A stretch of 64,000 nt of DNA. Source: Hypomesus transpacificus. Taxonomy: Eukaryota; Chordata; Actinopteri; Osmeriformes; Osmeridae. The translations under genes were made by a program, and so were the position numbers. Below, piece after piece: positions 1,438 to 41,800 of this stretch. The stretch spans positions 2,897,038-2,961,037 of the forward strand of contig NC_061075.1 of the NCBI RefSeq assembly GCF_021917145.1, given 5' to 3'. How positions within the stretch are numbered: position 1 is the first letter of the stretch; each line of letters begins with the position of its first letter. The notes beneath the pieces are model-generated. The model saw nothing but the letters and a program-made list of their open reading frames with translations, was not told the origin of the DNA and made no database searches.

Positions 1438-1453
1438 ACACAGTGAAGTTGAA

Positions 1454-1657
1454 ATGAGGCACCCAGTTAAACAACTGCTATTACCCCTCCTGGTTTTTGT
1501 GGCTCTCAGGATGTTTCCTATTAGCGGCAGGTCACAGCATTGCTCTCACGCACAACTCTGTCGTCTGGGTAACGAGCTGGCCAGCCCATCAGGGGAGTCC
1601 TGGCCACCTCCGCACCGTATGGGGGCAAAGGTCACACCAAGAGGACGCTTGAAGTGA
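1454..1657 (+). CDS. Unrecognised 67-aa ORF with signal-peptide-like start (copy A)
   Basis: The frame starts MRHPVKQLLLPLLVFVAL, a short basic head followed by a hydrophobic stretch that resembles a secretion signal. After residue 27 there is a CSHAQLC motif, two cysteines with five residues between them. The rest is Pro/Ser/Arg-rich and ends in a stop. I do not recognise the protein. No promoter, splice partner or poly(A) signal supports it, and it may be chance. The frame is also open in copy B, but the copies are not independent evidence. Treat as a weak candidate small secreted peptide. Confidence 0.15.
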   Translation: MRHPVKQLLLPLLVFVALRMFPISGRSQHCSHAQLCRLGNELASPSGESWPPPHRMGAKVTPRGRLK

Positions 1658-1659
1658 AA

Positions 1660-4259
<2,600 letters not shown>

Positions 4260-4992
4260 ATGACAGCCATCAAGCACGCACTCCAGAGGGACATCTTCAC
4301 GCCCAATGATGAGCGTCTCCTCAGCATCGTCAACGTTTGCAAGGCGGGGAAGAAGAAGAAGAACTGCTTCCTGTGTGCAACAGGTGTGACTCTGCGACCA
4401 TCTAAACAGCTGAATTCCCATAAAATCCAGAGTAATGAGATAATTTGCTGGTGGAGTACACGTGTGCCATCAACTTTTACTGCTTATGGGTTTAAATAAC
4501 GTGAACGGTACAGTCCCATCGGTAAAGTATATTTTTCCCCTTCAACTGTTTTTAAATGATGGTATTGATTTGTGTGCGGCAGTGACGACAGAGAGGCCTG
4601 TTCAAGTGAAGGTTGTGAAGGTGAAGAAGTCAGACAAAGGAGACTTCTACAAGCGCCAGATGGCCTGGGAGCTGAGAGACCTGACTGAGGTGGATGCCAA
4701 AGATTCCAGCAAGGTCAGCTTCTAGAACCAATATAAGATGTATTGAACTTAGGGGAAAAAGGTCAACTTCCCTTCCTGTTGACCTAACCACCATGCTCGA
4801 ATAGGGTGCAAGCCTGGGATCAATATATGTAAGATGAGCCAGGTCTGTTGATTACACATGAGCTTTTTCATGTCAAATTGTGTGAGAAGACTCCAGCAAG
4901 GACATCTACAGGAAGTGTGAGGTTAACTACAGGAAGTCCTCTGCAGATGAATGTGCTGACCTGCTTTGAGTGGGCGTGTCGTAACAGGATGA

Positions 4993-5110
4993 GATGGGTG
5001 TAGCTCAGTGGTAGAGAATGGTGTACAACTGAAGAGTATTTAACTGCAAATCAAGTTGTCACCGGTTCAATTCCCCCCAAGTACTTTGGATAAAAGCATC
5101 TGCTAAATGG
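4993..5110 (+). mobile_element. tRNA-derived SINE in exoc1 intron 2 (copy A)
   Basis: A tRNA-like head carries an A-box (TGTAGCTCAGTGGTAGAG) and a B-box (GGTTCAATTCC). It is followed by the tail TTGGATAAAAGCATCTGCTA common in teleost SINEs. The anticodon arm region is expanded and the acceptor stem does not close, so it is not a tRNA gene. The B counterpart is at 24027-24146. Confidence 0.75.
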
Positions 5111-5579
5111 ATACATTCCATCATCGTAAATATCTTCCCCGAACCCTCCACCCATCTCCGTTCTTCTCTCACGCCCCCTCGTCCCTACGTTCTCTCCCGC
5201 GTCTGTCGCCTCAGGAGAACCCGGAGTTCGACCTTCACTTCGAGAAGGTGTACAAGTGGGTGGCCAGCAGCACGGCCGAGAAGAACTCCTTCATATCCTG
5301 CATCTGGAAGCTGAACCAGCGCTACCTGAGGAAGAAGGTGGAGTTTGTGAACGTCAGCCCCCAGCTGCTGGAAGGTAGGCAGGGGCGCCTGGGCGCAGAG
5401 CGGGGACGGTGTGTGGACCCTGCCCGTCGGAGCAGAACCCATGTCCTGTTTGCTTGTGTGTGTGTGTGTGGGCTGCTAAAGCTTCCTTTCTGACCTTTGA
5501 ACTCTTAGCCGCATGGTTGTCCTTGACGAGAGGGGACTGACTTCAAACGCTATGGTTCTCTAGTGGGTCTGTACCTGGG

Positions 5580-5665
5580 GATGGGTGTAGCTCAGCGGTA
5601 GAGCTGACTGGAGATCAAGAGGTCGCAGGTTCAAAGCCCCACTTGTATGTCTGCTAAGTGAATAC
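5580..5665 (+). mobile_element. tRNA-derived SINE fragment in exoc1 intron 3 (copy A)
   Basis: GATGGGTGTAGCTCAGCGGT (A-box) and CGCAGGTTCAAAGCCCC (B-box-like) are followed by a shortened tail, TGTCTGCTAAGTGAATAC. It belongs to the same general SINE type as 4993-5110 but is a distinct insertion. Confidence 0.65.
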
Positions 5666-6907
5666 GTTATCTGTCAGTCTTAACGGTGTACCTCCCCAGG
5701 ACTCGCACACAGTTGTGCATGTTGGGACCAGAGCTTAGCGTAGCATTAGCGATTATCTCTGCAGTCCCAGGCATTCATGTGAAAGCGTGCTCCCTGAAAC
5801 GCCTGTATGCACGCCGACCTGTGGGGCGACTCTCTCTGCTAACCTGTCTATTCCCACCCCCTCTTCTCTTTCACACTCTCTCTGGCCAGAGCTTCCTAAA
5901 GCTGAAGGTTGGTAGAAATTCCCTTGTTTCCTGTTTCCCTCCTCATCCCGTTCTCTTGGCTTTCTATTTGCATCCTCCTCTTCCTCCTCCCGTTAATGAG
6001 AGACTGATGCTGCTCCTTGAGTGGTCTGTGATGTGACTGAATGTTGACAGTTTATTTATTTATTCTTTCGTTTTTAGAATTCATCATCATTTGTTTGATT
6101 GTGAAAGCGTTTTTCTGCATTTGTGAGCGCACAAGGCTCAGAATCTTGCCACCCCCCCGCTAACCCAGACTCCATTCACTACGTCCCGCTTCCCACGTCC
6201 CCACTTCCTGCTCACCGGCGTTCCACTTCCTGGTTTAGAATCCGTCCCCAGCGGGGAGAGCCAGAGTGTTGCCGGGGGCGACGAGGATGCGCTGGATGAC
6301 TACCAGGAGCTCAACGCCAGGGAGGAGCAGGACATCTCGGGCATGATGGACGTGTGTGAGTACGCCATCTCCAACGCTGAGGCCTTCGCTGAGAAGCTGT
6401 CCGGGAGCTGCAGGTGCTGGATGGGGTGAGTGCAGCGCAGAGAGACAGGAAATGCACCAGTCCCCCCACTTCCTGGTTATCAATGATGCAAACCTGTTTT
6501 TGAAAAAGAATCCCAAATATTTTTGTAACCTTTTTGAAACATTTGGAAGAAAACATTTTTCGAACCTTTTAGAAACGTTTTTCCCCCCCAAAACTGTACT
6601 TTCTGTATGCTAATATCCGTATGTCAGTTTGGATCAAATAATAAACACCCGATCTTGTCTCCTCTGCCAGGCCAACATCCAGTCCATCATGGCCCTCAGA
6701 GAAGCAGGTGAACATCTTGATGCAGCTTCTGGACGAGGCGCTGTCAGAGGTGGACACCATCGAGGGCAAGCTGAGCAGCTACGAGGAGATGCTGCAGAGC
6801 GTCAAGGAGCAGATGGACCACATCTCCCAGAGCAACCTCCTCATCCAGATCAGCAATACCAACAACGGCAAGCTGCTGGACGAGATCCAGTTCCTGGTGG
6901 TGAGGAG

Positions 6908-6942
<35 letters not shown>
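6908..6942 (+). repeat. Poly-G run beside a splice donor (copy A)
   Basis: An almost unbroken run of about 33 G starts about 10 bases after the exon 5 donor of exoc1. The B run (25941-25973) is similar. The exact length is unreliable in any sequencing platform. Confidence 0.8.
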
Positions 6943-8587
6943 TACCGGGGGTCACCGGGGTTACCCAGAGGCGTTACCAGAGGAGCTGAGTGTGCTCTGT
7001 CCTGTATCCCCCCCCAGAACTACATGGACCTGTCGAAGGGCCACGTGCGAGCGCTGCAGGAGGGAGACCTGTCCTCCCCCAAGGGCATCGAGGCCTGCAT
7101 CAACGCCTCGAGGCCCTGCTGCAATGCATGAATGTGGCACTCAGACCAGGTGGGGATATATGTAGGGTGTGTGTGTGTGTGTGTGTGGATGTTTTGTGAG
7201 TAGCCGTTTTTAATTGGCCCACTCTTTCACTTTGTTACTGACCCTGGCCCTCCTGCGTGTGTGTGTGTGTGTGTCCAGGCCACGAGAAGCTGATGGCAGT
7301 GAAGCAGCAGCAGCAGCTGTTCTCCGAGCTCAGAGACACCTTCGCTCGGCGCCTCACCAACCACCTCAACAACGTTTTCGTTCACCAGGTAAATCACCGT
7401 GGCGACGTGCATCTCGACCAATGACGCGTCTTTCGTTTCAGTGGCATCTCCCAGTGCCAGGTCTGTGCCCAACACACTGGGTCACTGTCGTACCATCCTC
7501 AGAAGCAGCAAGACCCTGGTCTTTGACAGCCACCTGCTCTGCTAGTATCACGCCGCTTGCCAGGACCTCACTCTGTCCCTCTTGTCAGTTACTTCGCTGC
7601 TGTCAGTACCTCACTGCTCTGCCAGTACCTCGCTCTGTCCCTCTGTCTGTACCTCACTGCTCTGTCTCTCTCTCTGTCAGTTCAACCACTTCAGTCACTT
7701 CAAAATGACCATCCCTCAGTTCTATAGGTCTTCCTGTCTGTCTCTTCCAGTGAGTACCCCCACAGCAACCACCCTGACCCCCGCCCCCCCCCCCCCCCCC
7801 CCTTCTCTAACCTCTGACCCCCTCCCCTCTACCCCAACTCACCAGTCTGACCTTTTCAAGCCATTTGTTTGGTCCTCAAGAATGCTGGCTAGAGTGTGCA
7901 TGGAGTGCGTTGATCCCCACTCACGTCTTCTCACAGACTGACCCTCATGACCCCTGACCCCCTCTGGCTCCATGCTGTCCTCCCCTCTGCCTGCATGTAG
8001 CCGCTGTGCCAGGCTGGGTAGCAGCAGACAAGTGGAGAGCGTGCTGATGTGATCATCTGATTTGCCGCTGTGGGAGACTTCTCTGTTTGTGACATGCAGA
8101 TTTACATCTGATACTAACCTGTTCTAGTGGTGATGTTCACCACACTGCCTCTAGCTCCAGTGACCTCACCTGGTTGGCACCCCTTGCATAAGATGTCCTC
8201 ACATGAATCATTGACAGTGCAGGTGTCGATGGTGTGTGTGGTGTGTGCGGATGCTGATAATGTGTGTACAGATGCTGATGTGTTGATGGTGCATGTGGTG
8301 CAGATGGGGGGGGAGGGCTGATGCTGTGATGTTGATTGTGTGTGTGTGTGTTGACGGTGTGTGTTTGTTGATACAGTGTGTGTGTGTTTCCGATGTGTGT
8401 GTGTGTGCTGATGCCGTGTGTGTGTCTCCAGGGCCACGACCAGAGCTCCAGTCTGACTCAGCACACGGCAGAGCTGCTGCTGCCCAAACACAGCCCTCTG
8501 CACAGGGAGCTGCTGCGCTACGCCAAGCTCATGGAGTGGCTGAAGACCACCCAGAGGGAGAAGTACGAGGGCCTGTCCAGGGTGAGC

Positions 8588-8732
8588 CGCGCCCCCTGCC
8601 CCCCCTGCCCCCACGCCCCCCTGCCCCCACGCCCCCCGGCCTCCACGCCCCCTGCCCCCCCGGCCCCCACGCCCCCCCGCCCCCTGCCCCCACGCCCCCC
8701 GGCCTCCACGCCCCCTGCCCTCACTCCCACAC
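8588..8732 (+). repeat. C-rich tandem tract in exoc1 intron 8 (copy A)
   Basis: Repeats of CCCCCTGCCCCCACGCC type begin a few bases after the exon 8 donor. The minus strand is G-rich with many G-runs of four to seven, so it could form G-quadruplexes. The Gly/Arg-rich open frames over it are by-products. Confidence 0.8.
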
Positions 8733-8872
8733 ACGCACACTTACATCAAGACAAGTTGTACTATTTTCAACTCCTGCGCTCCACAAACCACTCCCCCTTT
8801 TCCCCGTTTTTATGTTCTTTTAAAAAGTGAAGATAGCCTCCTGCTGGCTTCTCTCCTACTGTGAGATGTAAG

Positions 8873-8906
<34 letters not shown>

Positions 8907-9068
8907 CCCCCAGACGTACGTTGACTACATGAGCAGACTCTATGAGCGAGAAATCAAAGATTTCTTTGAGATCGCCAAGATCAAGATGGCGGGAACGACC
9001 AAGGAGGGGAAAGGGAAGTTTGGTAAGAGCTCTGACGTTTCCCACAAACTGGAGGGGGAGGGTTTTTT

Positions 9069-9165
9069 CGCTAGTAGGGTATAGTGGTTAGAGCTGTGAT
9101 GTGGGTGTAGGTTCAAATCCCCCCCCCCTGTCTCCTCATTGCTATGAAAGCGTGTGCTAAACAGA
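9069..9165 (+). mobile_element. SINE-like tRNA-derived fragment in exoc1 intron 9 (copy A)
   Basis: TAGTGGTTAGAGCTGTGATG resembles a tRNA A-box region and GTAGGTTCAAATCCCC a B-box. A short piece of the usual tail (GTGTGCTAAACAG) follows. The matching fragment in B is 28101-28200. Confidence 0.55.
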
Positions 9166-10279
9166 AGGCAAAAAACGAAACAATGAATGTGGGAACCATA
9201 CACAGCCGGGAAAAGCAAGGAACTCGATTGTGTTTAATAACTTGGTGTCCGTGACACTGTTTCACACGTCGTGCCTGATGTTAAAGCTCCCATGCCTCTC
9301 TCTGTCTCAGTGTGACTGTCTGAACTTCTGTTCCATGGCTTCTTAATGCCTGTGTGTGTGTGTGCTCTCTGCACCACACCCGTGACGCACACACTGCTGC
9401 GCAGCCCCGAGGTCAGCTCAGTCTGCCCTGCATGTCAAAGTGTGACCTCTGACCTCTTAACATGGCCTCCCGAGTCCTCATGCTGCATGTCTTTAACGTC
9501 TGTGTCTCTGCCGCCTGCCTTGCTAACCGGCTGACAGCCACGCTTCCTCGGAAAGAGAGCACTCTCAAACAGGAAACGGAAAGTAAGTATTCCGCCGGAA
9601 CTCACCAGTAACCCCCTCCCCCCCCCCCCACTTCTCTACTTCCTGTTTCTCTCTCTCTCCTTCCTACCTTTCGCTACTTCCTGCCGCGTGTTCCTTGTTA
9701 CTTCCTGCTCCTCCCTCCTTTCCTACCCTCAGTTCCTACCTACTGCCATCAGTACCCCTGCTGTCCTGTCGCTGCACATCCAGGACCCCTCCCCCCCCCC
9801 CTCTCACATAGCCACCCTCCAGCCTGTCCTTAGGCAGGCTGTCCATACAGTCAGCATGACTCACCCCAGCACTAGAACACATCCACACATTGCTCACGTC
9901 ACGCGTGCCTAACACGCCGGTACTTCCCCGCCCGTGTGGCGTGCGCGACGCCTCCTCCGCTAGCTGAGCGTGTGCTTCTCCTCGCCCCAGGCCTGCACGG
10001 CAGCTCGGGGAAGCTGACCGGCTCCACGTCCAGCCTGAACAAGCTGGCGGTGCAGGGCTCCACAGCCGGCGCTCCCAGTCGTCCTCCCTGCTCGACATGG
10101 GCAACATGTCCGCCTCCGACCTGGACGTGGCCGACAGGACCAAGTTTGACAAGGTAATATTGGGAGTGTGCGTCTGTGGGATACTAATGTGTGTGTGTGT
10201 GTGTCTTACTAATATGACAGTGCCTATCTCTGTTACTAATATGACAGTGCCTATCTCTGTTACTAATATTTATGTCTGT

Positions 10280-12498
10280 GTGTTCCTGATAGTACAGTGT
10301 GTGTGTGTTCCTGATGGTACAGTGTGTGTGTTACTGAGGGTACAGTGTGTGTTACTGAGGGTACAGTGTGTGTGTTACTGATGGTACAGTGTGTGTTACT
10401 GAGGGTACAGTGTGTGTTACTGAGGGTACAGTGTGTGTGTGTTACTGATGGTACAGTGTGTGTGTTACTGAGGGTACAGTGTGTGTTACTGAGGGTACAG
10501 TGTGTGTGTGTTCCTGATGGTACAGTGTGTGTGTTACTGAGGGTACAGTGTGTGTTACTGAGGGTACAGTGTGTGTGTGTTACTGATGGTACAGTGTGTG
10601 TGTTACTGAGGGTACAGTGTGTGTTACTGAGGGTACAGTGTGTGTGTGTCCTGATGGTACAGTGTGTGTGTTACTGATGGTACAGTGTGTGTTACTGAGG
10701 GTACAGTGTGTGTGTGTTACTGATGTACAGTGTGTGTTACTGAGGGTACAGTGTGTGTTACTGAGGGTACAGTGTGTCACTGAGGGTACAGTGTGTTTGT
10801 GTTACTGATGGTACAGTGTGTGTGTTACTGAGGGTACAGTGTGTGTTACTGAGGGTACAGTGTGTGTGTGTTCCTGATGGTACAGTGTGTGTGTTACTGA
10901 TGGTACAGTGTGTGTTACTGAGGGTACAGTGTGTGTGTGTTACTGATGGTACAGTGTGTGTTACTGAGGGTACAGTGTGTGTGTGTTACTGATGGTACAG
11001 TGTGTGTTACTGAGGGTACAGTGTGTGTGTTACTGATGGTACAGTGTGTGTTACTGAGGGTACAGTGTGTGTGTGTTACTGATGGTACAGTGTGTGTTAC
11101 TGAGGGTACAGTGTGTGTTACTGAGGGTACAGTGTGTCACTGAGGGTACAGTGTGTGTGTGTTACTGATGGTACAGTGTGTGTTACTGAGGGTACAGTGT
11201 GTGTGTGTTACTGATGGTACAGTGTGTGTTACTGAGGGTACAGTGTGTGTTACTGAGGGTACAGTGTGTCACTGAGGGTACAGTGTGTTTGTGTTACTGA
11301 TGGTACAGTGTGTGTGTTACTGAGGGTACAGTGTGTGTTACTGAGGGTACAGTGTGTGTGTGTTCCTGATGGTACAGTGTGTGTGTTACTGATGGTACAG
11401 TGTGTGTTACTGAGGGTACAGTGTGTGTGTGTTACTGATGGTACAGTGTGTGTTACTGAGGGTACAGTGTGTGTGTGTTACTGATGGTACAGTGTGTGTT
11501 ACTGAGGGTACAGTGTGTGTGTTACTGATGGTACAGTGTGTGTTACTGAGGGTACAGTGTGTGTGTGTGTTACTGATGGTACAGTGTGTGTTACTGAGGG
11601 TACAGTGTGTGTTACTGAGGGTACAGTGTGTCACTGAGGGTACAGTGTGTGTGTGTTACTGATGGTACAGTGTGTGTTACTGAGGGTACAGTGTGTGTGT
11701 GTTACTGATGGTACAGTGTGTGTTACTGAGGGTACAGTGAGTGTTACTGAGGGTACAGTGTGTGTTACTGAGGGTACAGTGTGTCACTGAGGGTACACGT
11801 GTGTGTGTTCCTGATGGTACAGTGTGTGTGTGTTACTGATGGTACAGTGTGTGTGTTACTGAGGGTACAGTGTGTGTTACTGAGGGTACAGTGTGTGTTA
11901 CTGAGGGTACAGTGTGTGTGTTCCTGATGGTACAGTGTGTGTGTACTGATGGTACAGTGTGTGTTACTGAGGGTACAGTGTGTTACTGAGGGTACAGTGT
12001 GGTCACTGAGGGTACAGTGTGTGTGTGTTACTGATGGTACAGTGTGTGTTACTGAGGGTACAGTGTGTGATACTGAGGGTACAGTGTGTGTGTGTTACTG
12101 AGGGTACAGTGTGTGTTACTGAGGGTACAGTGTGTACTGAGGGTACAGTGTGTCACTGAGGGTACAGTGTGTCACTGAGGGTACAGTGTGTGTTACTGAG
12201 GGTACAGTGTGTGTTACTGAGGGTACAGTGTGTTCTGAGGGTACAGTGTGTCACTGAGGGTACAGTGTGTGTTACTGAGGGTACAGTGTGTGTTACTGAG
12301 GGTACAGTGTGTTACTGAGGGTACAGTGTGTCACTGAGGTACAGTGTGTTACTGAGGGTACAGTGTGTCACTGAGGGTACAGTGTGTGTTACTGAGGGTA
12401 CAGTGTGTCACTGAGGGTACAGTGTGTCCACTGATGGTACAGTGTGTGTTACTGAGGGTACAGTGTGTGTGTTCCTGATGGTACAGTGTGTGTGTGTG
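10280..12498 (+). repeat. 2.2-kb minisatellite in exoc1 intron 10 (copy A)
   Basis: Roughly one hundred units of 18-25 bases with core TACTGAGGGTACAGTGTG, alternating GAG and GAT variants and varying (TG)n tails. A higher-order period of 492 bases is visible: the rare variant GTGTGTTTGT occurs at 10791 and again at 11283. The array ends about 10 bases before the acceptor of exon 11. Copy B has almost the same array (29313-31534). Confidence 0.95.
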
Positions 12499-13188
12499 GA
12501 TCCAGATCTTTGAGCAGGTGCTCAGTGAGCTGGAGCCTCTGTGTCTGGCAGAAACAAGACTTCATCAGCAAGTTCTTCAAGCTGCAGCAGAGCCCTCCAC
12601 CCCTCCAGGTGGCGCCACAGGTACATAAATACCCACTCGCTCTTTTCGTTTAACGTTCGTTTTATGTATATTTATTGTGAGCTCTGTGACAGTGCCTTCA
12701 CCGAGGGTACAATAATCCCCCCCCCCCCTCGTCTGTTGCAGACACAGTCCGTCATTAGCATTGTATCAACCCAAACTTTCCACCAGTGATATTGTTCCCT
12801 TCCTGCCTTTCCACATGCCCAATCCCAGGTTTCCACAGGGTCTTGAGTCTAAAAATTATGATGAAAACAGATTTTCATCCGAGGTCTTAAATTTCATGTA
12901 GGCGGGTCTAAAAAGGTTTTTACCCTCATTCATTTCCAGAAACACTAGCTGTCTTTATGGTCTTATATTTGACTTATTGAAACCTGCAGGAATCCTGGTG
13001 AAGCAACTGTAGTCTGCCTGGCGGTGAGCTGGGTATTGATATACTGTAGTTCCATGATATCAGTGTTGTGTCCTGTGGCTGATGTGGGAGGGGCTTGTTT
13101 CAGCAGGGCGAGGGGGAGGAGCTGGATGGAGGACAGCCCTCCAGGATGGCTCCCCACGGGGAGCACAGACACTCCATGTCTTCTGAGT

Positions 13189-20491: not shown

Positions 20492-20508
20492 CACACAGTG
20501 AAGTTGAA

Positions 20509-25938: not shown

Positions 25939-25975
<37 letters not shown>

Positions 25976-27904: not shown

Positions 27905-27938
<34 letters not shown>

Positions 27939-30900
27939 CCCCCAGACGTACGTTGACTACATGAGCAGACTCTATGAGCGAGAAATCAAAGATTTCTTTG
28001 AGATCGCCAAGATCAAGATGGCGGGAACGACCAAGGAGGGGAAAGGGAAGTTTGGTAAGAGCTCTGACGTTTCCCACAAACTGGAGGGGGAGGGTTTTTC
28101 GCTAGTAGGGTATAGTGGTTAGAGCTGTGATGTGGGTGTAGGTTCAAATCCCCCCCCCCTGTCTCCTCATTGCTATGAAAGCGTGTGCTAAACAGAAGGC
28201 AAAAAAACGAAACAATGAATGTGGGAACCATACACAGCCGGGAAAAGCAAGGAACTCGATTGTGTTTAATAACTTGGTGTCCGTGACACTGTTTCACACG
28301 TCGTGCCTGATGTTAAAGCTCCCATGCCTCTCTCTGTCTCAGTGTGACTGTCTGAACTTCTGTTCCATGGCTTCTTAATGCCTGTGTGTGTGTGTGCTCT
28401 CTGCACCACACCGTGACGCACACACTGCTGCGCAGCCCCGAGGTCAGCTCAGTCTGCCCTGCATGTCAAAGTGTGACCTCTGACCTCTTAACATGGCCTC
28501 CCGAGTCCTCATGCTGCATGTCTTTAACGTCTGTGTCTCTGCCGCCTGCCTTGCTAACCGGCTGACAGCCACGCTTCCTCGGAAAGAGAGCACTCTCAAA
28601 CAGGAAACGGAAAGTAAGTATTCCGCCGGAACTCACCTGTAACCCCCTCCCCCCCCCCCCCACTTCTCTACTTCCTGTTTCTCTCTCTCTCCTTCCTACC
28701 TTTCGCTACTTCCTGCCGCGTGTTCCTTGTTACTTCCTGCTCCTCCCTCCTTTCCTACCCTCAGTTCCTACCTACTGCCATCAGTACCCCTGCTGTCCTG
28801 TCGCTGCACATCCAGGACCCCTCCCCCCCCCCCTCTCACATAGCCACCCTCCAGCCTGTCCTTAGGCAGGCTGTCCATACAGTCAGCATGACTCACCCCA
28901 GCACTAGAACACATCCACACATTGCTCACGTCACGCGTGCCTAACACGCCGGTACTTCCCCGCCCGTGTGGCGTGCGCGACGCCTCCTCCGCTAGCTGAG
29001 CGTGTGCTTCTCCTCGCCCCAGGCCTGCACGGCAGCTCGGGGAAGCTGACCGGCTCCACGTCCAGCCTGAACAAGCTGGCGGTGCAGGGCTCCAACAGCC
29101 GGCGCTCCCAGTCGTCCTCCCTGCTCGACATGGGCAACATGTCCGCCTCCGACCTGGACGTGGCCGACAGGACCAAGTTTGACAAGGTAATATTGGGAGT
29201 GTGCGTCTGTGGGATACTAATGTGTGTGTGTGTGTGTCTTACTAATATGACAGTGCCTATCTCTGTTACTAATATGACAGTGCCTATCTCTGTTACTAAT
29301 ATTTATGTCTGTGTGTTCCTGATAGTACAGTGTGTGTGTGTTCCTGATGGTACAGTGTGTGTGTTACTGAGGGTACAGTGTGTGTTACTGAGGGTACAGT
29401 GTGTGTGTTACTGATGGTACAGTGTGTGTTACTGAGGGTACAGTGTGTGTTACTGAGGGTACAGTGTGTGTGTGTTACTGATGGTACAGTGTGTGTGTTA
29501 CTGAGGGTACAGTGTGTGTTACTGAGGGTACAGTGTGTGTGTGTTCCTGATGGTACAGTGTGTGTGTTACTGAGGGTACAGTGTGTGTTACTGAGGGTAC
29601 AGTGTGTGTGTGTTACTGATGGTACAGTGTGTGTGTTACTGAGGGTACAGTGTGTGTTACTGAGGGTACAGTGTGTGTGTGTTCCTGATGGTACAGTGTG
29701 TGTGTTACTGATGGTACAGTGTGTGTTACTGAGGGTACAGTGTGTGTGTGTTACTGATGGTACAGTGTGTGTTACTGAGGGTACAGTGTGTGTTACTGAG
29801 GGTACAGTGTGTCACTGAGGGTACAGTGTGTTTGTGTTACTGATGGTACAGTGTGTGTGTTACTGAGGGTACAGTGTGTGTTACTGAGGGTACAGTGTGT
29901 GTGTGTTCCTGATGGTACAGTGTGTGTGTTACTGATGGTACAGTGTGTGTTACTGAGGGTACAGTGTGTGTGTGTTACTGATGGTACAGTGTGTGTTACT
30001 GAGGGTACAGTGTGTGTGTGTTACTGATGGTACAGTGTGTGTTACTGAGGGTACAGTGTGTGTGTTACTGATGGTACAGTGTGTGTTACTGAGGGTACAG
30101 TGTGTGTGTGTTACTGATGGTACAGTGTGTGTTACTGAGGGTACAGTGTGTGTTACTGAGGGTACAGTGTGTCACTGAGGGTACAGTGTGTGTGTGTTAC
30201 TGATGGTACAGTGTGTGTTACTGAGGGTACAGTGTGTGTGTGTTACTGATGGTACAGTGTGTGTTACTGAGGGTACAGTGTGTGTTACTGAGGGTACAGT
30301 GTGTCACTGAGGGTACAGTGTGTTTGTGTTACTGATGGTACAGTGTGTGTGTTACTGAGGGTACAGTGTGTGTTACTGAGGGTACAGTGTGTGTGTGTTC
30401 CTGATGGTACAGTGTGTGTGTTACTGATGGTACAGTGTGTGTTACTGAGGGTACAGTGTGTGTGTGTTACTGATGGTACAGTGTGTGTTACTGAGGGTAC
30501 AGTGTGTGTGTGTTACTGATGGTACAGTGTGTGTTACTGAGGGTACAGTGTGTGTGTTACTGATGGTACAGTGTGTGTTACTGAGGGTACAGTGTGTGTG
30601 TGTGTTACTGATGGTACAGTGTGTGTTACTGAGGGTACAGTGTGTGTTACTGAGGGTACAGTGTGTCACTGAGGGTACAGTGTGTGTGTGTTACTGATGG
30701 TACAGTGTGTGTTACTGAGGGTACAGTGTGTGTGTGTTACTGATGGTACAGTGTGTGTTACTGAGGGTACAGTGTGTGTTACTGAGGGTACAGTGTGTGT
30801 TACTGAGGGTACAGTGTGTCACTGAGGGTACAGTGTGTGTGTTCCTGATGGTACAGTGTGTGTGTGTTACTGATGGTACAGTGTGTGTGTTACTGAGGGT

Positions 30901-33900
30901 ACAGTGTGTGTTACTGAGGGTACAGTGTGTGTTACTGAGGGTACAGTGTGTGTGTTCCTGATGGTACAGTGTGTGTGTTACTGATGGTACAGTGTGTGTT
31001 ACTGAGGGTACAGTGTGTTACTGAGGGTACAGTGTGTCACTGAGGGTACAGTGTGTGTGTGTTACTGATGGTACAGTGTGTGTTACTGAGGGTACAGTGT
31101 GTGTTACTGAGGGTACAGTGTGTGTGTGTTACTGAGGGTACAGTGTGTGTTACTGAGGGTACAGTGTGTTACTGAGGGTACAGTGTGTCACTGAGGGTAC
31201 AGTGTGTCACTGAGGGTACAGTGTGTGTTACTGAGGGTACAGTGTGTGTTACTGAGGGTACAGTGTGTTACTGAGGGTACAGTGTGTCACTGAGGGTACA
31301 GTGTGTGTTACTGAGGGTACAGTGTGTGTTACTGAGGGTACAGTGTGTTACTGAGGGTACAGTGTGTCACTGAGGGTACAGTGTGTTACTGAGGGTACAG
31401 TGTGTCACTGAGGGTACAGTGTGTGTTACTGAGGGTACAGTGTGTCACTGAGGGTACAGTGTGTCACTGATGGTACAGTGTGTGTTACTGAGGGTACAGT
31501 GTGTGTGTTCCTGATGGTACAGTGTGTGTGTGTGGTTCCAGATCTTTGAGCAGGTGCTCAGTGAGCTGGAGCCTCTGTGTCTGGCAGAACAAGACTTCAT
31601 CAGCAAGTTCTTCAAGCTGCAGCAGAGCCCTCCACCCCTCCAGGTGGCGCCACAGGTACATAAATACCCACTCGCTCTTTTCGTTTTACGTTCGTTTTAT
31701 TGTATATTTATTGTGAGCTCTGTGACAGTGCCTTCACCGAGGGTACAATAATCCCCCCCCCCCCCTCGTCTGTTGCAGACACAGTCCGTCATTAGCATTG
31801 TATCAACCCAAACTTTCCACCAGTGATATTGTTCCCTTCCTGCCTTTCCACATGCCCAATCCCAGGGTTTCCACAGGGTCTTGAGTCTAAAAAATTATGA
31901 TGAAAACAGATTTTCATCCGAGGTCTTAAATTTCATGTAGGCGGGTCTAAAAAAGGTTTTTACCCTCATTCATTTCCAGAAACACTAGCTGTCTTTATGG
32001 TCTTATATTTGACTTATTGAAACCTGCAGGAATCCTGGTGATGCAACTGTAGTCTGCCTGGCGGTGAGCTGGGTATTGATATACTGTAGTTCCATGATAT
32101 CAGTGTTGTGGTCCTGTGGCTGATGTGGGAGGGGCTTGTTTCAGCAGGGCGAGGGGGAGGAGCTGGATGGAGGACAGCCCTCCAGGATGGCTCCCCACGG
32201 GGAGCACAGACACTCCATGTCTTCTGAGTGAGTCTCTCTCTCTCTCTCTGTCCCTCCCTCTCTCTCTGTCCCTCCCTCCCTCTCTCTCTGTCCCTCCCTC
32301 TCTCTCTGTCCCTCCCTCTCTCTCTCTCTCTCTCAGCAGGAGACATCTTTACTCTACGCTGATGCTTCATAGTTTCAAGTTTATTTGTCATTTGTAACAC
32401 GTGCAGGTACATTAGAATCCTTCGGTCCTGATCCTTTGACAATCCCCTAACCCATAATAAACAATGTAAGATTAAATAAAGATAAATACCATTTAGTACA
32501 CGTCACAATATTATATATAATGAAGAATATAAAGGAAAATATACTGAATAACAACTGAGAACATCCCAACAATGTTACCCCCCCCCCTCCTCCCCAGGAA
32601 GGACTTGGTGCGCCTGATGATGAACAAGATCTTCCAGAGCATCGAGACGGAGCTCCACAGCCTCATCGCCCTGGGCGACAAGATCGACAGCTTCCACTCG
32701 CTGTACATGCTGGTGAAGATGAGTCACCACGTGTGGACGGCGGAGAACGTGGACCCGGCCTCCTACCTCAGCACCACCCTGGGCAACGTGCTGGTCACCG
32801 TCAAGAGGAACTTCGACAAATGCATCGTGAGTGGAAAGGGGGAGGGGTGGGTTCCTCGTTCATCGCACATCTTCACGCCTTCATCCTCCCTCCCTCCTTC
32901 ACCTGGCTTGTTGTGCAATCCGTTCAGATCCGTCTTATGCTTGTTGTGCAGTCCGTTCAGATCCGTCTTGTTGTGCTTGTGCGGTCCGTTCAGATCCGGC
33001 TTGTTGTGCTTGTGCAGTCCGTTCAGATCCGGCAGATGGAGGAGGTGAAGATCTCCAAGAAGAGTAAGGTGGGGATCCTGCCGTTCGTCACGGGCTTCGA
33101 GGAGTTTGCCGAGCTGGCGGAGACCATCTTCCGCAGCGCCGAGCGGCGCGGCGACCTGGACAAGGCCTACGTCAAGCTGATCAGAGCTGTCTTCATGAAC
33201 GGTGAGAGGGTGATTGTTTACCAAAAAAAAACAAACGTACAAATATCGCATGAAAAAGTACAATGACGATAACGGATGGCTTACAATGAGTTTGTACATT
33301 TTATTAATTTAGCAGACGCTTTGATCTAAAACGACGGTGTAAATTTACTGTAACAAATCAAAGATTAGAAGTGTGTAAATCTAGCAGTTTTTTGGGGGCG
33401 GTCAGTCAGTCAAGGAATGATCTGTATTTACCAGGCACAGTACATCTAACTACAGTGGGACAAATCTTCAACTGCAATATTACATAGCACAGTGCAAAAA
33501 GAATAGTGTACCTTGGTGATGACCTCACTGTCTTTCCCCAGTGGAGAAGGTGGCCAATGAGAGCCAGAAGACCCCACGTGACGTGGTGATGATGGAGAAC
33601 TTCCACCACATCTTCTCCACGCTGTCGCGCCTGAAGATCTCCTGCCTGGAGGCCGAGAGGAAGGAGGCCAAGCACAAGTACACTGACCACCTGGGGTCCT
33701 ACGTCATCAACTCCCTGGGCCAGCCGCTGGAGAAGCTCAACGTAAGAGGGAGGTTAGGGGTTGGGAGGGTGAGGACGGGGGTCAGGTTGAGGTCAAGGTG
33801 CTAGGATGGTGGGTTTGGGCCTGGAATGTGAGGTTGAAATGGTAGGGTCAGGGGTCGGGATGGTGAGGTTAGAAGGTCCGTGGCCATACTGACAGCGTTG

Positions 33901-34367
33901 TCCACATGGCGCAGCACTTCTTCGAGGGCGTGGAGGCGCGCGTGGCCCAGGGCGTGCGTGAGGAGGAGGTCAGCTACCAGCTGGCCTTCAACAAGCAGGA
34001 GCTGAGGAAGGTGATCAAGGAGTACCCTGGGAAGGAGGTGAAGAAGGGCCTGGACAACCTGTACAGGAAGGTGGACAAGCACCTGTGTGAGGAGGAGAGC
34101 CTGCTGCAGGTGAGAACATCCCATAATATGCCCCTGAATCAGCAACACGAGCTCAGCTCACCTGGGGGAGCGAGACCGATTTGACTCACCTGCATTCCCC
34201 GCGCTGTCCCCTAGGTGGTGTGGCACTCGATGCAGGACGAGTTCATCCGCCAGTACAAGCACTTCGAGGGTCTGATTGGCCGCTGCTACCCGGGGTCTGG
34301 CATCACCATGGACTTCACCATCAGGGACATGCTGGAGTACTTCTCCAGCATTGCCCAGTCGCATTAA
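23296..34367 (+). CDS. exoc1: Exocyst complex component 1 (Sec3 homologue), intact copy
   Basis: Subunit of the octameric exocyst, which tethers secretory vesicles to the plasma membrane; the Sec3 N-terminus binds PI(4,5)P2 and Rho-family GTPases. Coding exons: 23296-23419, 23618-23748, 24249-24408, 25271-25458, 25703-25930, 26050-26182, 26312-26421, 27464-27613, 27946-28054, 29023-29186, 31542-31655, 32148-32227, 32598-32826, 33018-33201, 33542-33741, 33915-34109, 34215-34367. They total 2652 bases (883 aa; 904 aa with the two cassettes), close to the human protein. All junctions are GT-AG and in phase. The start is [20 protein letters not shown]. Residues 1 to about 105 match the PH-like Sec3 domain, coiled-coil sequence follows ([20 protein letters not shown]), then the helical Sec3 C-terminal region ending SSIAQSH. 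A TTTCAGCAG acceptor before exon 12 may add one Gln. Confidence 0.96.
24027..24146 (+). mobile_element. tRNA-derived SINE in exoc1 intron 2 (copy B)
   Basis: Same insertion as 4993-5110: A-box, B-box and the TTGGATAAAAGCATCTGCTA tail. Confidence 0.75.
24613..24698 (+). mobile_element. tRNA-derived SINE fragment in exoc1 intron 3 (copy B)
   Basis: Same insertion as 5580-5665. Confidence 0.65.
24922..24939 (+). other. exoc1: 18-nt candidate microexon of exoc1 (ELPKAE)
   Basis: Flanked by TCTCTGGCCAG and GTTGGT. It inserts in phase between exons 3 and 4, giving LLE-ELPKAE-ESVPSG. From memory, a vertebrate EXOC1 form carries a similar ELPK insertion at this site, so alternative splicing is likely. 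Copy A has the same 18 bases at 5890-5907. Confidence 0.7.
25941..25973 (+). repeat. Poly-G run beside the exoc1 exon 5 donor (copy B)
   Basis: About 32 G in a row just after the donor sequence GTGAGGAGGGA. G-runs near donors can act as intronic splicing enhancers bound by hnRNP H/F. Confidence 0.8.
26816..26837 (+). repeat. Poly-C run in exoc1 intron 7 (copy B)
   Basis: Nearly pure C run within intron 7; the copy A equivalent is at 7781-7802. Length differs slightly between the copies. Confidence 0.7.
27620..27764 (+). repeat. C-rich tandem tract in exoc1 intron 8 (copy B)
   Basis: Same tract as 8588-8732, with identical unit order. It starts about six bases after the donor. Confidence 0.8.
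28101..28200 (+). mobile_element. SINE-like tRNA-derived fragment in exoc1 intron 9 (copy B)
   Basis: Same insertion as 9069-9165. Confidence 0.55.
28569..28613 (+). other. exoc1: 45-nt cassette exon of exoc1 ([15 protein letters not shown])
   Basis: Bounded by CTGACAG and GTAAGTA. It keeps phase 1 on both sides, so it can be included or skipped between KFG and LHGSSGK without shifting the frame. Its peptide closely matches the optional ATLPRKES segment I know from mammalian EXOC1 isoforms. Copy A: 9538-9582. Confidence 0.85.
29313..31534 (+). repeat. 2.2-kb minisatellite in exoc1 intron 10 (copy B)
   Basis: Core TACTGAGGGTACAGTGTG with (TG)n tails, about one hundred units. The 492-base higher-order period is again visible (GTGTGTTTGT at 29827 and 30319). 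The array runs up to about ten bases before the exon 11 acceptor, leaving a TG-rich tract instead of a normal pyrimidine tract. Confidence 0.95.
32230..32336 (+). repeat. CT-rich tandem repeat in exoc1 intron 12 (copy B)
   Basis: CTCTCTCTGTCCCTCCCT-type units begin two bases after the exon 12 donor. Confidence 0.85.
32905..33032 (+). repeat. 33-bp tandem repeat covering the exoc1 exon 14 acceptor (copy B)
   Basis: Four units, each with TCCGTTCAGATCCG followed by a TTGT-rich stretch ending GTGCAG, GTGCGG or GTGCAA. The real exon 14 begins at 33018 ([10 protein letters not shown]). Unit two (32952) also has an intact CAG before TCCGTTCAG. Because the unit is 33 bases, use of that acceptor would add 22 codons without a stop. 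Confidence 0.85.
33300..33366 (-). mobile_element. Short SINE-tail fragment, reverse (copy B)
   Basis: TTTAGCAGACGCTTTGATCT is a diverged reverse complement of the fish SINE tail. The copy A counterpart starts near 14255. Too short to assign to a family. Confidence 0.4.
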
Positions 34368-34622
34368 CCACAGAGCACGTTACTGACGTCATCACTGCTT
34401 ATTGGTGCCTCGCTAAATGAAACACTACTTACCTTCTTTTACATGTCTTGACTGTAAGAGATTCACAGAATGATTCCCCCCCCGCCAAGTCCATGTTGCA
34501 CACATACTAGTTTGTGTTGTAAATTGTCTAAGACCTTAAACTTAAGCAAAAACGTCCAGCAAAGTAAATTTTATAATGGAGCTTAATTGTGTGCATTATA
34601 TATAGGCAGAATGTCAAATGTA

Positions 34623-34628
34623 AATAAA
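34623..34628 (+). terminator. exoc1 poly(A) signal
   Basis: AATAAA about 255 bases after the exoc1 stop. The copy A equivalent is 15578-15583. Confidence 0.6.
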
Positions 34629-34956
34629 CTACAAATCTCACCTTGTTTCCTGTGTACTTTGTCAGCATATAGAGCAAGTGTCTATCTGCTGTAATAGACT
34701 AAAAGTAGCTTCATAAACTTTATAAATGTGAATTGCAGCCAAGCCAACATTTGGGAGCATTAAGGGGTGAGTATCTATATGTTAACTGACATTTGTTTGT
34801 AATTTCTCACTAGTTATTGGGCAAACTAAAGGAGGACCTTAACATTCCAGTGCCATCTAGGAGAGGCAGCAAATAATGTTAGAGAACAATAGTGTGCCTT
34901 GCTGATCGCAAGCACACCAATAAGAACTAGATAGAACTGAATTGTAATTTTGTGCA

Positions 34957-34962
34957 TTTATT
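34957..34962 (-). terminator. tmem44 poly(A) signal
   Basis: AATAAA on the minus strand about 50 bases after the tmem44 stop. The copy A equivalent is 15913-15918. Confidence 0.55.
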
Positions 34963-35011
34963 ACCTTTCGAACGAGTATACCAAAGTATAGACCAGATAA
35001 AGGGGAAGATA

Positions 35012-38000
35012 TCATCCCTGGTCGACTGGTCCACCTCCGGCTACTGGGCCAGGTTCTCTGCTGCCGTCGTCATGCTGCTGGGGCAGGCAGGCGGGTGGAG
35101 GTTGGGGATGCCTGGGGCAGATGGGTGGGGGTTGGGGGGGCTGGGGCAGGTGGGTGGGGGTTAAGGGGGCCTGGGTTAAGGGGGCCTGGGGCAGGTGGGT
35201 GGGGGTCAGGGGGCCCTGGGGCCACTCCTGCAGGGGGAACTTGTCCACGTTCACCTGGGAGGGGGGTCTGCTCCATTGTGGGCTTGCTTGTTCAAAATCC
35301 CACTAGAGACAAGACAGGAGGGCTGGAGATGTAAGGCAGGACACAGTGGTGCCCCCTAGGGGTGCACCAGGGGAAACACAATGCAAAGGTACATAAATAC
35401 ACAATTAGTCAATTGTTTTCATTCAGCAAACGTGTTTGATTCAAGCGACGAACAGAAGAGGGGGAGGATTTGAACCTGTGACCTCTCGATCTCTGTTTAA
35501 ATGCTTTAACAACTGAACGGCACCCATACCCCCACAGCGACCATGACGGTAAACTTATTGTATGAGCAGCAGAGGGGATGACTACCTGCAGGTCAGAGCT
35601 AAGGGATGAGTCTGAGGAGGAGTCCAACTCAGTGCAGGCCTCATCCACTCTCACCACCCTCTCCGTCGTCCGCAGGGGTCGGCAGTTTGGCGCCTTCTCC
35701 CTGGAGACCGTCATCTGCTTCAAACACATCTAGACACACACACAGTTTTATGTCTCATGCACCAGGATACACACACACACAGTTTTATGTCTCATGCACC
35801 AGGATACACACACACACACACACACACACACAGCTTCACACCACACACACAGATGGCTTCATAGTACTCGTACTAGGGAGGAGCTAACCCTGGCAGTTTC
35901 TGCTGAGAGGGGTTGAGTATTTCAGCTCACCTTTCTCACAGGTTGAATGTCAACATCCATATAGTGACCCATATCAACCAGAGGGTTCTTCTGTGAAGGA
36001 GCCCTGTCCAAGCCCAACTGAAGAGAAGGAAATGGAAAACAGAACAGATACATTAAGACACGAAACACTCAGCTCAAATCCTGTGTTGAAAAACAAAAAC
36101 TACAGAACAGTCCTGCCCAGAACCCTGGCTGTCTCTGTTGCACTTACTCTGGAGCTGATGGAGCCAGACACACCTTGGTGCCCCCCCAGGCGATGCTGTG
36201 TTTCTGGGGAGGAGGGAGGGGACCCCCCTAGGAGATGCTCCGTGTATGGGGACAGCTTCCTACACTTCTGGCTAGGGCCTCGTCTGCACCAGTGAACAGC
36301 CAGGATCTGGGCAGTCATTCCTGCTAAGGACCAATCACAGGCAGGATGCTAAGACACATTTTTTTTCTTTTTTATGTTTGATGTTTAAGGATACGAGGAC
36401 CTCCAGGGCAGCAGAGCCGAGAGCAGCCAGAAGCCAGGGCAGAGCTACCAGCACAGCCTCCAGGTGTCTGTGCCAGGGCAGGGTTGCCCTAACCCACACC
36501 AGGACAGCACTGCTGTACAGGACTCCAGCCAGGAAACACAACACCCCCGACCACACTCGCGCCCTGCAGAGCACCTCCCCTCTGTGCTAAAACACAGACG
36601 TTTTTCCTGGTGACTTGTGTGTCATTACATATTATTATTTTTACATATTATAGTGATGTGTGACTCACTGCCCTGAAAAGCACCGGAAGCTTGGAGGTCC
36701 AGGCTATGACCAGGTAGAGCAGGCCAAGCACATACCCCAGGACTGCTGTCTGATCCTGGACAGAGACACAACATTCAGCTCTCAACCTTAGTGCTCCAAC
36801 AGAGGCAGGAGAAGCAGTACCTGTTTTACTGACAGTTCAGCATGCCATTTATGTTGGAGCTGGAAGAACAGTTTAAAAGCTATACACAAGTGCGAGGCAA
36901 GGTGCAAGCTATGAACGAGGCTACTAAAATCACATTTAACTTATTGGTTTTCAGAGTTTAATTTGTATTTGTTAAAGTGAGGCTTTTTACTTATTGTTTT
37001 TTTACTTATTGGTTTTCAGAGTTTAATTTGTATTTGTTAAAGTGAGACTTACTTGCACGAGATCACTCAGCAGTCGTCTCCTCATGGCGGAGTGTGTAGA
37101 TGGGTTTAGGGAAAGCTGGGTGCTCAACCAGCCTCCGCATCCCAGTAACACCAGCCCGGACACGGCTTGGAGGGTTTGGTTTTGCCTCCGCCTCCTTCGC
37201 TCCATCCTCTGTCTCCTCACTGAGAAAGTTCTGCTCAGTTAATGGGTAGGCCTACGTCAACTTAGGGCAAGTACACTTTTGAAAGAGGCTGGGTAGTTCA
37301 GGTAACTGCGCATGACAACCCTAAAGTCCTGGATAATTTGTTTATAATCTTTAACTTGAAGCCAACTTCACCAGGGTATTATCTCTGTAGTCAATTTATC
37401 TCACGGACGCCTGTATCTCCGTTGCCCAGGCAAATGTGTTGCATGAGGAAAGGGACTTTGTTTTACCGTGACAGAAGCGTCCAGTGAACAAGTTAACCAT
37501 GTTATTTACTAAGGTGTAGACGTGCGCGTCCTGGTCGCATCACTTACCAGCGGACGAGTTGCAACACAATGGGAGTAAGATAGCGGCAACTTTAACCGCA
37601 TCCAGAAAAACCATAAAAACTCCAAGATTAACCTCGAAAAGGTAGAGATACGAGATCGGTTCAATTTCGAGTAGTTTTTAACGCTGTCTGGACTTGACAT
37701 GAAACATGCAAGTGGCTTTTTCCTCACCTGTATCGCGAGCTGGTGGGAAAGAATAGCCCCGACCATGTTGCACACGTTGCCGAAGAAGCAGTATATCGAG
37801 CCACCAGCTTCGACGCCAGCATGTCTGCCGCGCACTCTTAGACAAAGTCTTGATTTGGGAAATAAAGGAAATGTGCGACAAGACCAAGCTTTCGATTACA
37901 TCAAAGCGACGTCATATATTGGTAAAAGTAATATAGGAGGCTTATACTCACATGCAACAGGATGCCAGCAAGACCAAACCGCACATGCAGGCGAGGCCGA

Positions 38001-38091
38001 TTGGAACGCAAACATTTTCATAGTTTTGAAAACAGCTGAATATTGTGTCCAGGCGCAACTGCACGTTCAAAGTACCATCTGTTTCAATCAT
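35012..38091 (-). CDS. tmem44: Transmembrane protein 44, intact copy
   Basis: Multi-pass membrane protein of poorly known function, reported from taste tissue in mammals. Coding exons in order: 37952-38091, 37728-37836, 37548-37632, 37053-37219, 36669-36755, 36395-36586, 36148-36306, 35931-36017, 35586-35729, 35012-35302. They total 1461 bases, 486 aa (human about 475), all in phase. Key matches to the family are LSHQLAIQ, MERRRRRQNQ, VLGYVLGLLY and LPWLLAALGSAALEVL. About seven hydrophobic segments are spread over exons 1-7, followed by a hydrophilic Ser/Asp-rich tail (ELDSSSDSSLSSDLQ) and a proline-rich end coded by a short repeat. The start was chosen as the ATG in frame with DTIFSCFQNYENVCVPIG. 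The exon 2 acceptor (CTAAG) is the least certain junction. The intron after exon 6 has a U12-type donor. Confidence 0.9.
35452..35537 (-). mobile_element. tRNA-derived SINE fragment, reverse orientation (copy B)
   Basis: Same insertion as 16409-16495, within the last tmem44 intron. Confidence 0.5.
35730..35853. repeat. (CA)n microsatellite (copy B)
   Basis: Same array as 16689-16812. On the tmem44 strand it is a TG tract running up to the exon 9 acceptor (CTAG). Confidence 0.85.
36307..36394 (-). other. Probable U12-type GT-AG intron of tmem44 (88 nt)
   Basis: The donor reads GTATCCTTA, a match to the minor-spliceosome 5' consensus RTATCCTT. The acceptor is CCCAG, with TCCTTAGC about 16 bases upstream as a near-match to the U12 branch site TCCTTRAC. 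Splicing joins ALEVL to ILAVHW in phase 0, agreeing with the family alignment. Copy A has the same intron at 17261-17347. Confidence 0.7.
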
Positions 38092-38462
38092 ATTTCCATT
38101 ATAAACCATGTGTTTTACCATTACCAAACACGTTGCAGTCGGCTACAAGAAAAAACGTCTGGCCCCGTTGACTGGATGAGCCTCTGTAATGCAACGCGCG
38201 CTCATTAAACACGTATAGCCAGGTGTGCCCCATCTCTTACGCATCATCAGCCTAACCTGTCAATCGTCGAGGGAAAAATCTTCAAACGCCAGAAGTATGA
38301 ATTATATAAACAATAACGACGAAACTGTAACCGAGACATTGTTGAATCACTCCTTATGTTCAAAGAACTTGGACATCTATAAAGCTCTTATAGGGAGCTC
38401 CGGGTTTGTGTATACCAATGGAGGTGAAAACCAAATAAAAACACATCCTCTGAAATATATGA

Positions 38463-38468
38463 TTTATT
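38463..38468 (-). terminator. lsg1 candidate poly(A) signal
   Basis: AATAAA on the minus strand about 355 bases past the lsg1 stop, within the 730-base gap before tmem44. Confidence 0.45.
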
Positions 38469-38823
38469 TATGGAACTGTTGGAACTATGTTTAAGGCATT
38501 ACTCATGAACCGGAATCAAAGCATTCATCATGTGCATGTACAATGTTATAGTTTCCAAAATAATATAGTAGAAACCCTAAATAATTACAATAATTCCTAA
38601 TTCAGATGAGTTTAGACCACAGAGAGCATCTGCAGTGGTGGCCTGGTACAGAGGCATGTTCTGCACGGTTGGAGGAAGTTGTCCTCAAACAGCCTGCTTA
38701 GCTCCACCCATCTCCGCTAGGGAAACAGGAAGTGGCATCCTTAGACTCGGTGGATCTCTGGGAATAACACACGTTCCACTCCACCAGGTTTGGGATATTT
38801 ATAAAAAGCAGGGGCGACCCTGA

Positions 38824-41800
38824 TCAGGCGTCCAGGTGCTTGGTGAGTCGACGTACTTTCTCCTTCTTGTTCCTGTTTCCGTGCTTCTTCCAGGGCTTGC
38901 CCAGGAGGGCCGCGTCGGAGCCGGGCTTTCCCGAGCCGATGGGCCCGCTGCCGGGCTTGTAGCCCATGAAGGACTGGACCCCTTTGGTGAGCGCTCGCAC
39001 GTTCTCCTGAAACAGAATCACATGCCTGGGGTCAGCGCGTCGGCCCTCGTACACCGGCACGACTCGGAGCAAGACACGGATACTTCTAGAGAGTTCCAGT
39101 ACATTCAGCAGATGGGTTTCATTCAAAGCCACACAGCCGCGTATTTCTAAGTGCATATGGTCAAGGAATAGTGTGTTTAGCAGGCTCAGAGCGACAGTAA
39201 CTAATGTCGTGGCCCATTCCAAGACCCTGCGCCACAGCGTTTGACCTAGACAGCTGCCTAGGACGGGCAGAAAGCGTTGGTTAAGTAAAACTGCACCTGA
39301 TGGAAGAAGTTCTTGTCGACTGGGTTCTCGATCCTCCTGACGCGGTGTGTGCCGCCGTCCGTGCCGGAGACGGCCGGGTCGGCCAGGCCCGGCAGGAAGG
39401 CGCCATGCTGGTACTGGAAGTCCTCTGCTTTGATGTGCGGAGGGGGGTGGCAGTACAGCAGCTTCCCCTGTCCACGGTCACAAGACACATGCTCGTTATT
39501 GACTCCGAACAGGTTGTCGGGATTGGTAGCCAGGGCAACGGCTTGGCCGGCCGAGCTGTGCGCAGCTGTACTCACGTTGACGTAATCCTTCAGGATGTAG
39601 CGGGCGGATCTGGACTGGTCTGGCTGACCATGTGTGGTCATGAAGCCTCTCATGTCTGAAAACACAACACAGTAATGGTGTCAATGTCTAGAGGGGTGTG
39701 GGGGAGGCGTGGCTAGGTATGCAGGTGGGTGGAATTAGCGTGGACTGGGATATGGGGCAGGTGTGGTCAGATGTGGAGGAGGCGTGGTCGGATATAGAGG
39801 GAGCGTGGTCAGGTGAGTGGAGGGGCTTAGCCAGGTATGCAGGTGCGTGGAGGGGCGTGGTCAGGTGTGGAGGGGCGTGGTCACGTATCCAGGTGCGTGG
39901 AGGGGCGTGGTCAGGTATGCAGGTGCGTGGAGGAGCGTGGTCAGGTATGCAGGTGCGTGGAGGGGCGTGGTCAGGTATGCAGGTGCGTGGAGGGGCGTGG
40001 TCAGGTATGCAGGTGCGTGGAGGGGCGTGGTCAGGTATGCAGGTGCGTGGTCAGGTATGCAGGTGCGTGGTCAGGTATGCAGGTGCGTGGTCAGGTATGC
40101 AGGTGCGTGGTCAGGTATGCAGGTGCGTGGTCAGGTTTGCAGGTGCGTGGTCAGGTATGCAGGTGCGTGGTCAGGTATGCAGGTGCGTGGTCTTACATCC
40201 GTAGGCCATGAGCAGCTCCTCGAAGGTGGGCGGCCGGTCGGGGTCTTCGTCTTCTCGCGGGCGGATGATGTTGATGCCGTAGGTGCCCTCCAACACTGCC
40301 CGAGGAATAGTCTGACACACGTGGCTCTGTTAAGGACCCGACACCACAGATATATCTATGCATTACATTGATGTACAGTTAAAGCACAGCTCTATACACA
40401 ATACATGCCCATAAATATACACTCAGAGGGGTAAGCATGTGTGTTTTGGTTGGGAAATCAGTAAAGGGGATAGCATGTGTGTTTTGGATGGGAAAAAGAC
40501 CAAAGGGGTTAACATGTGTGTTTTTGATGGGAAATGATCAAAGGGGTTAACATGTGTGTTTTGGTTGGGAAATCACTAAAGGGGATAACGTGTGTTTTGG
40601 ATGGGAAAATGACCATAGGGGTAAGCATGTGTGTTTTGGTTGGGAAATGACCAAAGGGGTTAACATGTGTGTTTTGGATGGAAAATTACCAAAGGGGTTA
40701 GCATGTGTGTTTTGGATGGGAAATGACCAAAGGGGTTAGCATGTGTGTTTTGGTTGGGAAATGACCAAGGGGTTAGCATGTGTTTTGGTTTGGAAATTAC
40801 CAAGGGGTGAGCATGTGTGTTTTGGTTTGGAAATGACCAAAGGGGTTAGCATGTTTGTTTTGGATGGGAAAATGACCATAGGGGTAAGCCCTTACTCCTA
40901 GCAGAGTGAAGTCTTACAAATAAAATGATTCTGAGTAACTCTAAAATGCTATACGAAATACATGAATTCTCAACATTGCAAATGTATACGGCCACACAAT
41001 TACAGAAGACATTTTTTACATTCAAAACATCGTTCATGTAAATCATTTGGGGGGGCCTAAGACTCGAGTATGAATGTGTGACAGCCTAAACATGATGAGA
41101 CAGTGGAGGAGCAGAAGGATATGAGTGAAATGGCCGGCACGTGGTCTCTCATCTGGTCTATGGACAGAATCCCACAGCAGATCATCTCAGCTTTGGTGGA
41201 CACGAAGGAGGGCATGACCAGTCCGGGGCAGTCACACAGACACAGGTCGGGCTCCACGTACAGCGTCTGGAAAACACACGCGCACACACACGCTTGTGAC
41301 CTTCCTCCAGACGGGACTCTGGAAGTGGGCCTGGGTGAGAGGAGGCATGCTGGTACCAGGAAGTGGGCCTGGGTGAGAGGAGGCATGCTGGTACCAGGAA
41401 GTGGGCCTGGGTGAGAGGAGGCATGCTGGTACCAGGAAGTGGGCCTGGGTGAGAGGAGGCATGCTGGTACCAGGAAGTGGGCCTGGGTGAGAGGAGGCAT
41501 GCTGGTACCAGGAAGTGGGCCTGGGTGAGAGGAGGCATGCTGGTACCAGGAAGTGGGCCTGGGTGAGAGGAGGCATGCTGGTACCAGGAAGTGGGCCTGG
41601 GTGAGAGGAGGCATGCTGGTACCAGGAAGTGGGCCTGGGTGAGAGGAGGCATGCTGGTACCAGGAAGTGGGCCTGGGTGAGAGGAGGCATGCTGGTACCT
41701 GGAAGTGCTTGGTGTGTCCTGGGGTGGCCGAGACGGACACCTTCTTGTTTCGGAAGATTGTGTTGATGGTGGAACTCTTGCCCACGTTTGGATAGCCCAC

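Follow-up and report, generated by a model that had tools for sequence, protein, structure and literature searches.

The stretch analysed here, hereafter the window, comprises 64,000 nucleotides of Hypomesus transpacificus (C16:2897038-2961037 of a 437-Mb, 376-contig assembly; coordinates given below without a prefix are window positions) and contains two nearly identical 19-kb blocks, copy A and copy B, each carrying exoc1, a tmem44-like gene and the end of lsg1. To judge from the sequence, we consider it highly probable (about 0.94) that this is a false duplication, in which two contigs from a single locus share 18.95 kb at their ends and were never merged. An unmerged overlap of contig ends, as opposed to a real duplication, had been proposed by an earlier sequence-only reading of the window, and this proposal is supported by the error-like nature of the differences between the copies, by frame breaks on one side only, by clean coding sequence elsewhere in the two contigs and by the gene order.

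The window contains a single run of N, the 100-base scaffold gap between the copies (20392-20491), and no further gap was found in the 100 kb on each side of the window, this one being the sole gap in the 264 kb that were read. Comparison by BLASTN of the sequence left of the gap with that on its right gave one collinear alignment (1437-20389 versus 20492-39440; 19,012 columns), whose identity is 99.2% when gaps are counted and 99.8% when they are not, which confirms the near-identical block on both sides of the gap; the remaining matches listed across the gap are those of a minisatellite against itself, out of register. On such an alignment chance is excluded as the source of the likeness. 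In the overlap, the terminal 18,955 bases of the left contig are paired with the first 18,950 of the right one. The block had been said to touch the gap exactly on both sides: the alignment does begin at base 1 of the right contig, but it stops 2 bases short of the last base of the left contig, and it starts at 1437, one base before the proposed start of copy A at 1438. Copy A, which forms the tip of the left contig, therefore spans 1437-20391 and is judged redundant and rich in errors, while copy B, the start of the right contig (20492-39441), is judged the correct copy on the strength of its open exoc1 frame and of the alignment. No large insertion separates the two, the largest indel in the alignment being 5 bp. 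In an alternative alignment two 9-bp indels fall inside a GA microsatellite array that differs in length between the copies (2937-3164 in copy A, 21984-22194 in copy B). The minisatellite is indeed nearly the same in both, with 2219 bp in copy A (10277-12495) and 2222 bp in copy B (29310-31531).

The kinds of differences between the copies, counted outside the GA array, are informative. There are 93 indels, 87 of them of a single base, and 26 substitutions; 16 of the latter are isolated, and the other 10, which adjoin other differences, are left out of the isolated count. Homopolymer runs of at least two bases hold 41% of the bases and 80 of the 87 one-base indels. Vertebrate sequences normally diverge by several substitutions per indel; here the ratio is reversed, with about 6 indels per isolated substitution, and the pattern thus resembles the consensus error of long reads. 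Accumulated mutation would leave a different trace, and the differences look like consensus error in this respect. Moreover, indels are as dense in coding sequence (14 in 3,028 bp, 4.6/kb) as in the rest (79 in 15,710 bp, 5.0/kb; p = 0.89). Such an equal density together with so few substitutions is not expected of an evolving duplicate, functional or not, and the two copies accordingly lack the mutational spectrum that a real tandem duplication should display. Indel counts per 2 kb range from 4 to 16 without clear trend. A gradient of error toward the tip of each contig was considered and set aside, since the coding sequence shows copy A to be wrong for inserted as well as for missing bases wherever a judgement was possible. 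The one-base indels number 31 over the first half of the overlap, 12 of them bases missing in copy A, and 56 over the second, with 37 such cases (p = 0.023; p = 0.009 without the minisatellite).

The coding sequences indicate which copy is at fault. In copy B, exoc1 (23296-34367, + strand) has 18 coding exons encoding 899 aa, with 17 introns that are all GT-AG, and the choice between neighbours at one acceptor site yields five variants of 893-899 aa, all of them open. The protein is 84% identical to a human EXOC1 sequence, and its gene name is confirmed by three Sec3 Pfam domains (Sec3_C-term, 3.1e-79; Sec3_CC, 1.6e-27; Sec3-PIP2_bind, 4.1e-25); PDB and Pfam searches with one exon alone were both empty, and the full assembled protein was needed. 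The exoc1 of copy A (4260-15321, + strand; coding exons projected from copy B) bears nine single-base indels in 7 of the 18 exons, plus another exon with two that cancel each other in length, so that 8 exons are touched; exons 1-3 (415 bp) are free of indels. The spliced frame of copy A, taken as it is, contains 22 stops. Similarly, lsg1 on the opposite strand is represented in copy A by a fragment (19774-20391, - strand) made of the last exon (19774-19956) and of the part of the penultimate exon (20249-20391) that is reached before the gap cuts it, and these carry five indels. In copy B the gene (38824-44260, - strand) continues from the last (38824-39006) and penultimate (39297-39467) exons through further exons to at least 44260. 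Its name is borne out by the match of the last exon to the PDB sequence 'Large subunit GTPase 1 homolog' (E 1.4e-20); this exon alone gave no Pfam match.

Taking the exoc1 exons and the end of lsg1 as the coding sequence in which an indel can be judged, all 14 indels break copy A and none breaks copy B (two-sided binomial p = 0.0001). They extend from 6402 to 20365, and differences to the left of 6402 are assignable to neither copy. Consequently, copy B is, as far as reading frames can tell, the correct sequence wherever it can be judged, and the two copies differ in consensus quality by the same measure. The naming of tmem44 held in part: a human TMEM44 sequence has weak tblastn matches in copy B (E 0.009 and 0.021), and the gene, which lies beside lsg1, is given here as a probable tmem44 with an approximate span of open frames (35412-38142, - strand; counterpart in copy A at about 16.4-19.1 kb). 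Of five pieces of it that were compared, two differ between the copies and break in copy A, three are identical and none breaks in copy B.

As a control, we examined coding sequence elsewhere in the same two contigs, limited to stretches that align to human proteins (human CLOCK 449-507 and LSG1 244-356, for example, fall outside them). The genes clock and tmem165 lie in the left contig, about 19-30 kb left of the window, and their 2,202 aligned coding nucleotides show no frame break where 10.2 would be expected at the rate of copy A; matches that follow one another are separated by 92 nt or more, and none resembles an exon split by a change of frame. For the right contig, 2.1 kb in all come from the part of lsg1 outside the overlap (1,104 nt aligned) and from the fam43a frame (346 aa; Pfam PID_2, 6.7e-73). 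Over the 4,344 nt of the four genes, 20.1 frame breaks would be expected and none was seen. As copy A is broken one-sidedly while the other coding sequence is clean, it looks like an uncorrected contig tip and not like a paralogue. One could also see in the nine coding indels and the many stops of its exoc1 an older duplicate that has decayed into a pseudogene. This is scarcely credible: a single coding substitution accompanies the nine indels over 2,700 bp, isolated substitutions are likewise outnumbered by indels over the whole overlap, an excess that speaks strongly against an older pseudogene, and the coding exons are no richer in indels than the rest.

The content of the assembly around the copies leads in the same direction. 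In a search of the 437 Mb for exoc1, all 37 matches listed fall in copies A and B, and probes from the two ends of the overlap (1438-3000 and 18001-20389) gave two matches each, both here and none elsewhere among the matches listed. The left contig has clock and tmem165 near exoc1, and in the right contig exoc1 is followed by lsg1 and a fam43-type gene; a single exoc1 thus fits between clock/tmem165 on one side and lsg1/fam43a on the other. The expectation that collapsing the overlap leaves one exoc1, one tmem44 and one lsg1 agrees with this arrangement.

Some observations nevertheless weigh against a plain contig overlap. First, the initial 3.4 kb contain a 5-bp indel and seven isolated substitutions with the appearance of genuine variation, which means that the overlap is not simply one allele represented twice from end to end. 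Transitions account for 6 of the 7 isolated substitutions up to position 4811 and for none of the 9 beyond it, of which 8 are A/T changes (Fisher p = 0.0009, the split at 4811 having been picked after the data were seen). All six isolated transitions, the 5-bp indel and the change in length of the GA array delimit a possibly allelic part of copy A (1616-4811), and part of the overlap may be one between two haplotypes. Second, the first 1 kb of copy B (20492-21491) has nine indels, with copy B the shorter in seven of them; these seven are assignable to neither copy, and the tip of copy B may itself carry uncorrected errors. Third, comparable errors on one side would be expected if a genuine duplicate had missed polishing.

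The first of these points raises the question of whether the copies might represent the two parental alleles from one end to the other, that is, a pure heterotype duplication. The transitions, the 5-bp indel and the array would fit such a view, yet the complete lack of transitions among the isolated substitutions beyond 4811 and the remaining 15.6 kb of overlap, in which no clear allelic difference is seen, make it quite improbable. Most simply, the two contigs would represent different alleles over the first 3.4 kb, after which both continue along the same allele or through a homozygous stretch. Since homozygosity could account for the 15.6 kb free of allelic difference, a mixed case, allelic in part and homotype in part, is quite possible.

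The third point bears on a real and very recent tandem duplication of exoc1 and tmem44, whose contig would have broken at the junction, leaving copy A unpolished and the junction unassembled. The copies are nearly identical and in direct order, a repeat can, in principle, break an assembly in such a way that each contig retains a complete copy, and polishing of a genuine copy would likewise suffer from ambiguous mapping. Still, we regard such a duplication as very improbable. Both of its breakpoints would have to sit at the gap, with lsg1 cut within an exon, and the homology at its boundaries (at most 14 bp) is at chance level. No assembled sequence joins the copies, the junction being the 100-N gap itself, even if absence from an assembly is no proof of non-existence. 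Furthermore, Ko et al. 2022 (PMC9516828) report that, in their data, a gap between two copies was a mark of false duplications as opposed to true ones.

Returning to the unmerged overlap, the following sequence of events can be envisaged. After the assembler had left the 18.95-kb overlap unmerged, the scaffolder would have put the two contigs one after the other and set 100 N between them. Copy A probably derives from a single error-corrected long read or from a few of them, and it may have stayed unpolished because the polishing reads matched copy B more closely. The real locus would then hold exoc1, the tmem44-like gene and lsg1 once each. In terms of read depth, copy A is probably starved and copy B near normal; half depth on both copies is not required.

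Artefacts of this sort have been described. Rhie et al. 2021 (PMC8081667) define false homotype duplications as dovetailing overlaps at contig boundaries that leave tandem copies with a gap between them, state that such overlaps often have the length of a corrected read and that the duplicated sequence attracts reads during polishing, and present, in the legend of their Extended Data Fig. 6c, a combined heterotype and homotype case. The window shows the same features: a dovetail at the contig ends, tandem copies separated by a gap on one scaffold and unequal consensus quality. It departs from them in that part of the present overlap may be allelic. Its 18.95 kb would be a plausible length for a corrected read. 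Ko et al. 2022 (PMC9516828) report that gaps between copies and low depth mark false duplications, and they count false gene gains. The extra whole or partial genes that flank the gap on one scaffold here are similar to gains such as NPNT and ZBTB11 described there; the genes and the species are others, and that study used read depth and discordant read pairs where we used sequence alone. With false heterotype duplications, described in both papers (PMC8081667, PMC9516828), the window has in common the allele-like differences of the initial 3.4 kb; in the other 15.6 kb of the overlap no clear allelic difference is seen. The case is thus most probably an ordinary assembly artefact of a published kind.

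In practice, work on gene counts, synteny or selection that uses this assembly might list a truncated lsg1 as well as additional genes, namely another tmem44 and another exoc1, the latter as a pseudogene or in split models. The comparison also offers a test that needs no reads: when two copies lie on either side of a gap and one of them alone bears the coding indels, with indels as dense in coding sequence as elsewhere, that duplicate is probably a contig tip that escaped correction.

As for the neighbourhood, the order of genes is tmem165, clock, exoc1, the tmem44-like gene, lsg1 and the fam43-type gene (window 23296-46982 together with C16 2866725-2878276), and the segment from exoc1 through lsg1 to the fam43-type gene lies inside one gap-free contig. 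In human, clock and exoc1 are neighbours at 4q12, and tmem44, lsg1 and fam43a are found at 3q29; presumably, then, this order joins two blocks that are apart in human. A literature search for exoc1, tmem44 and lsg1 together found no paper. Farther to the left, at about 2.81-2.86 Mb of C16, immunoglobulin-like and kinase-like exons look by eye like the kit/kdr receptor cluster, which we would expect beside clock. Adjoining an lsg1 exon in the right contig is a tandem array (41321-41707) with a 38-bp unit, about 10 copies and a 99% match. Finally, an open frame of 358 aa on the + strand (59513-60586) contains Tc1/mariner transposase domains (HTH_Tnp_Tc3_2, 3.2e-25; DDE_3, 1.1e-13) and possibly represents an intact Tc1-like element.
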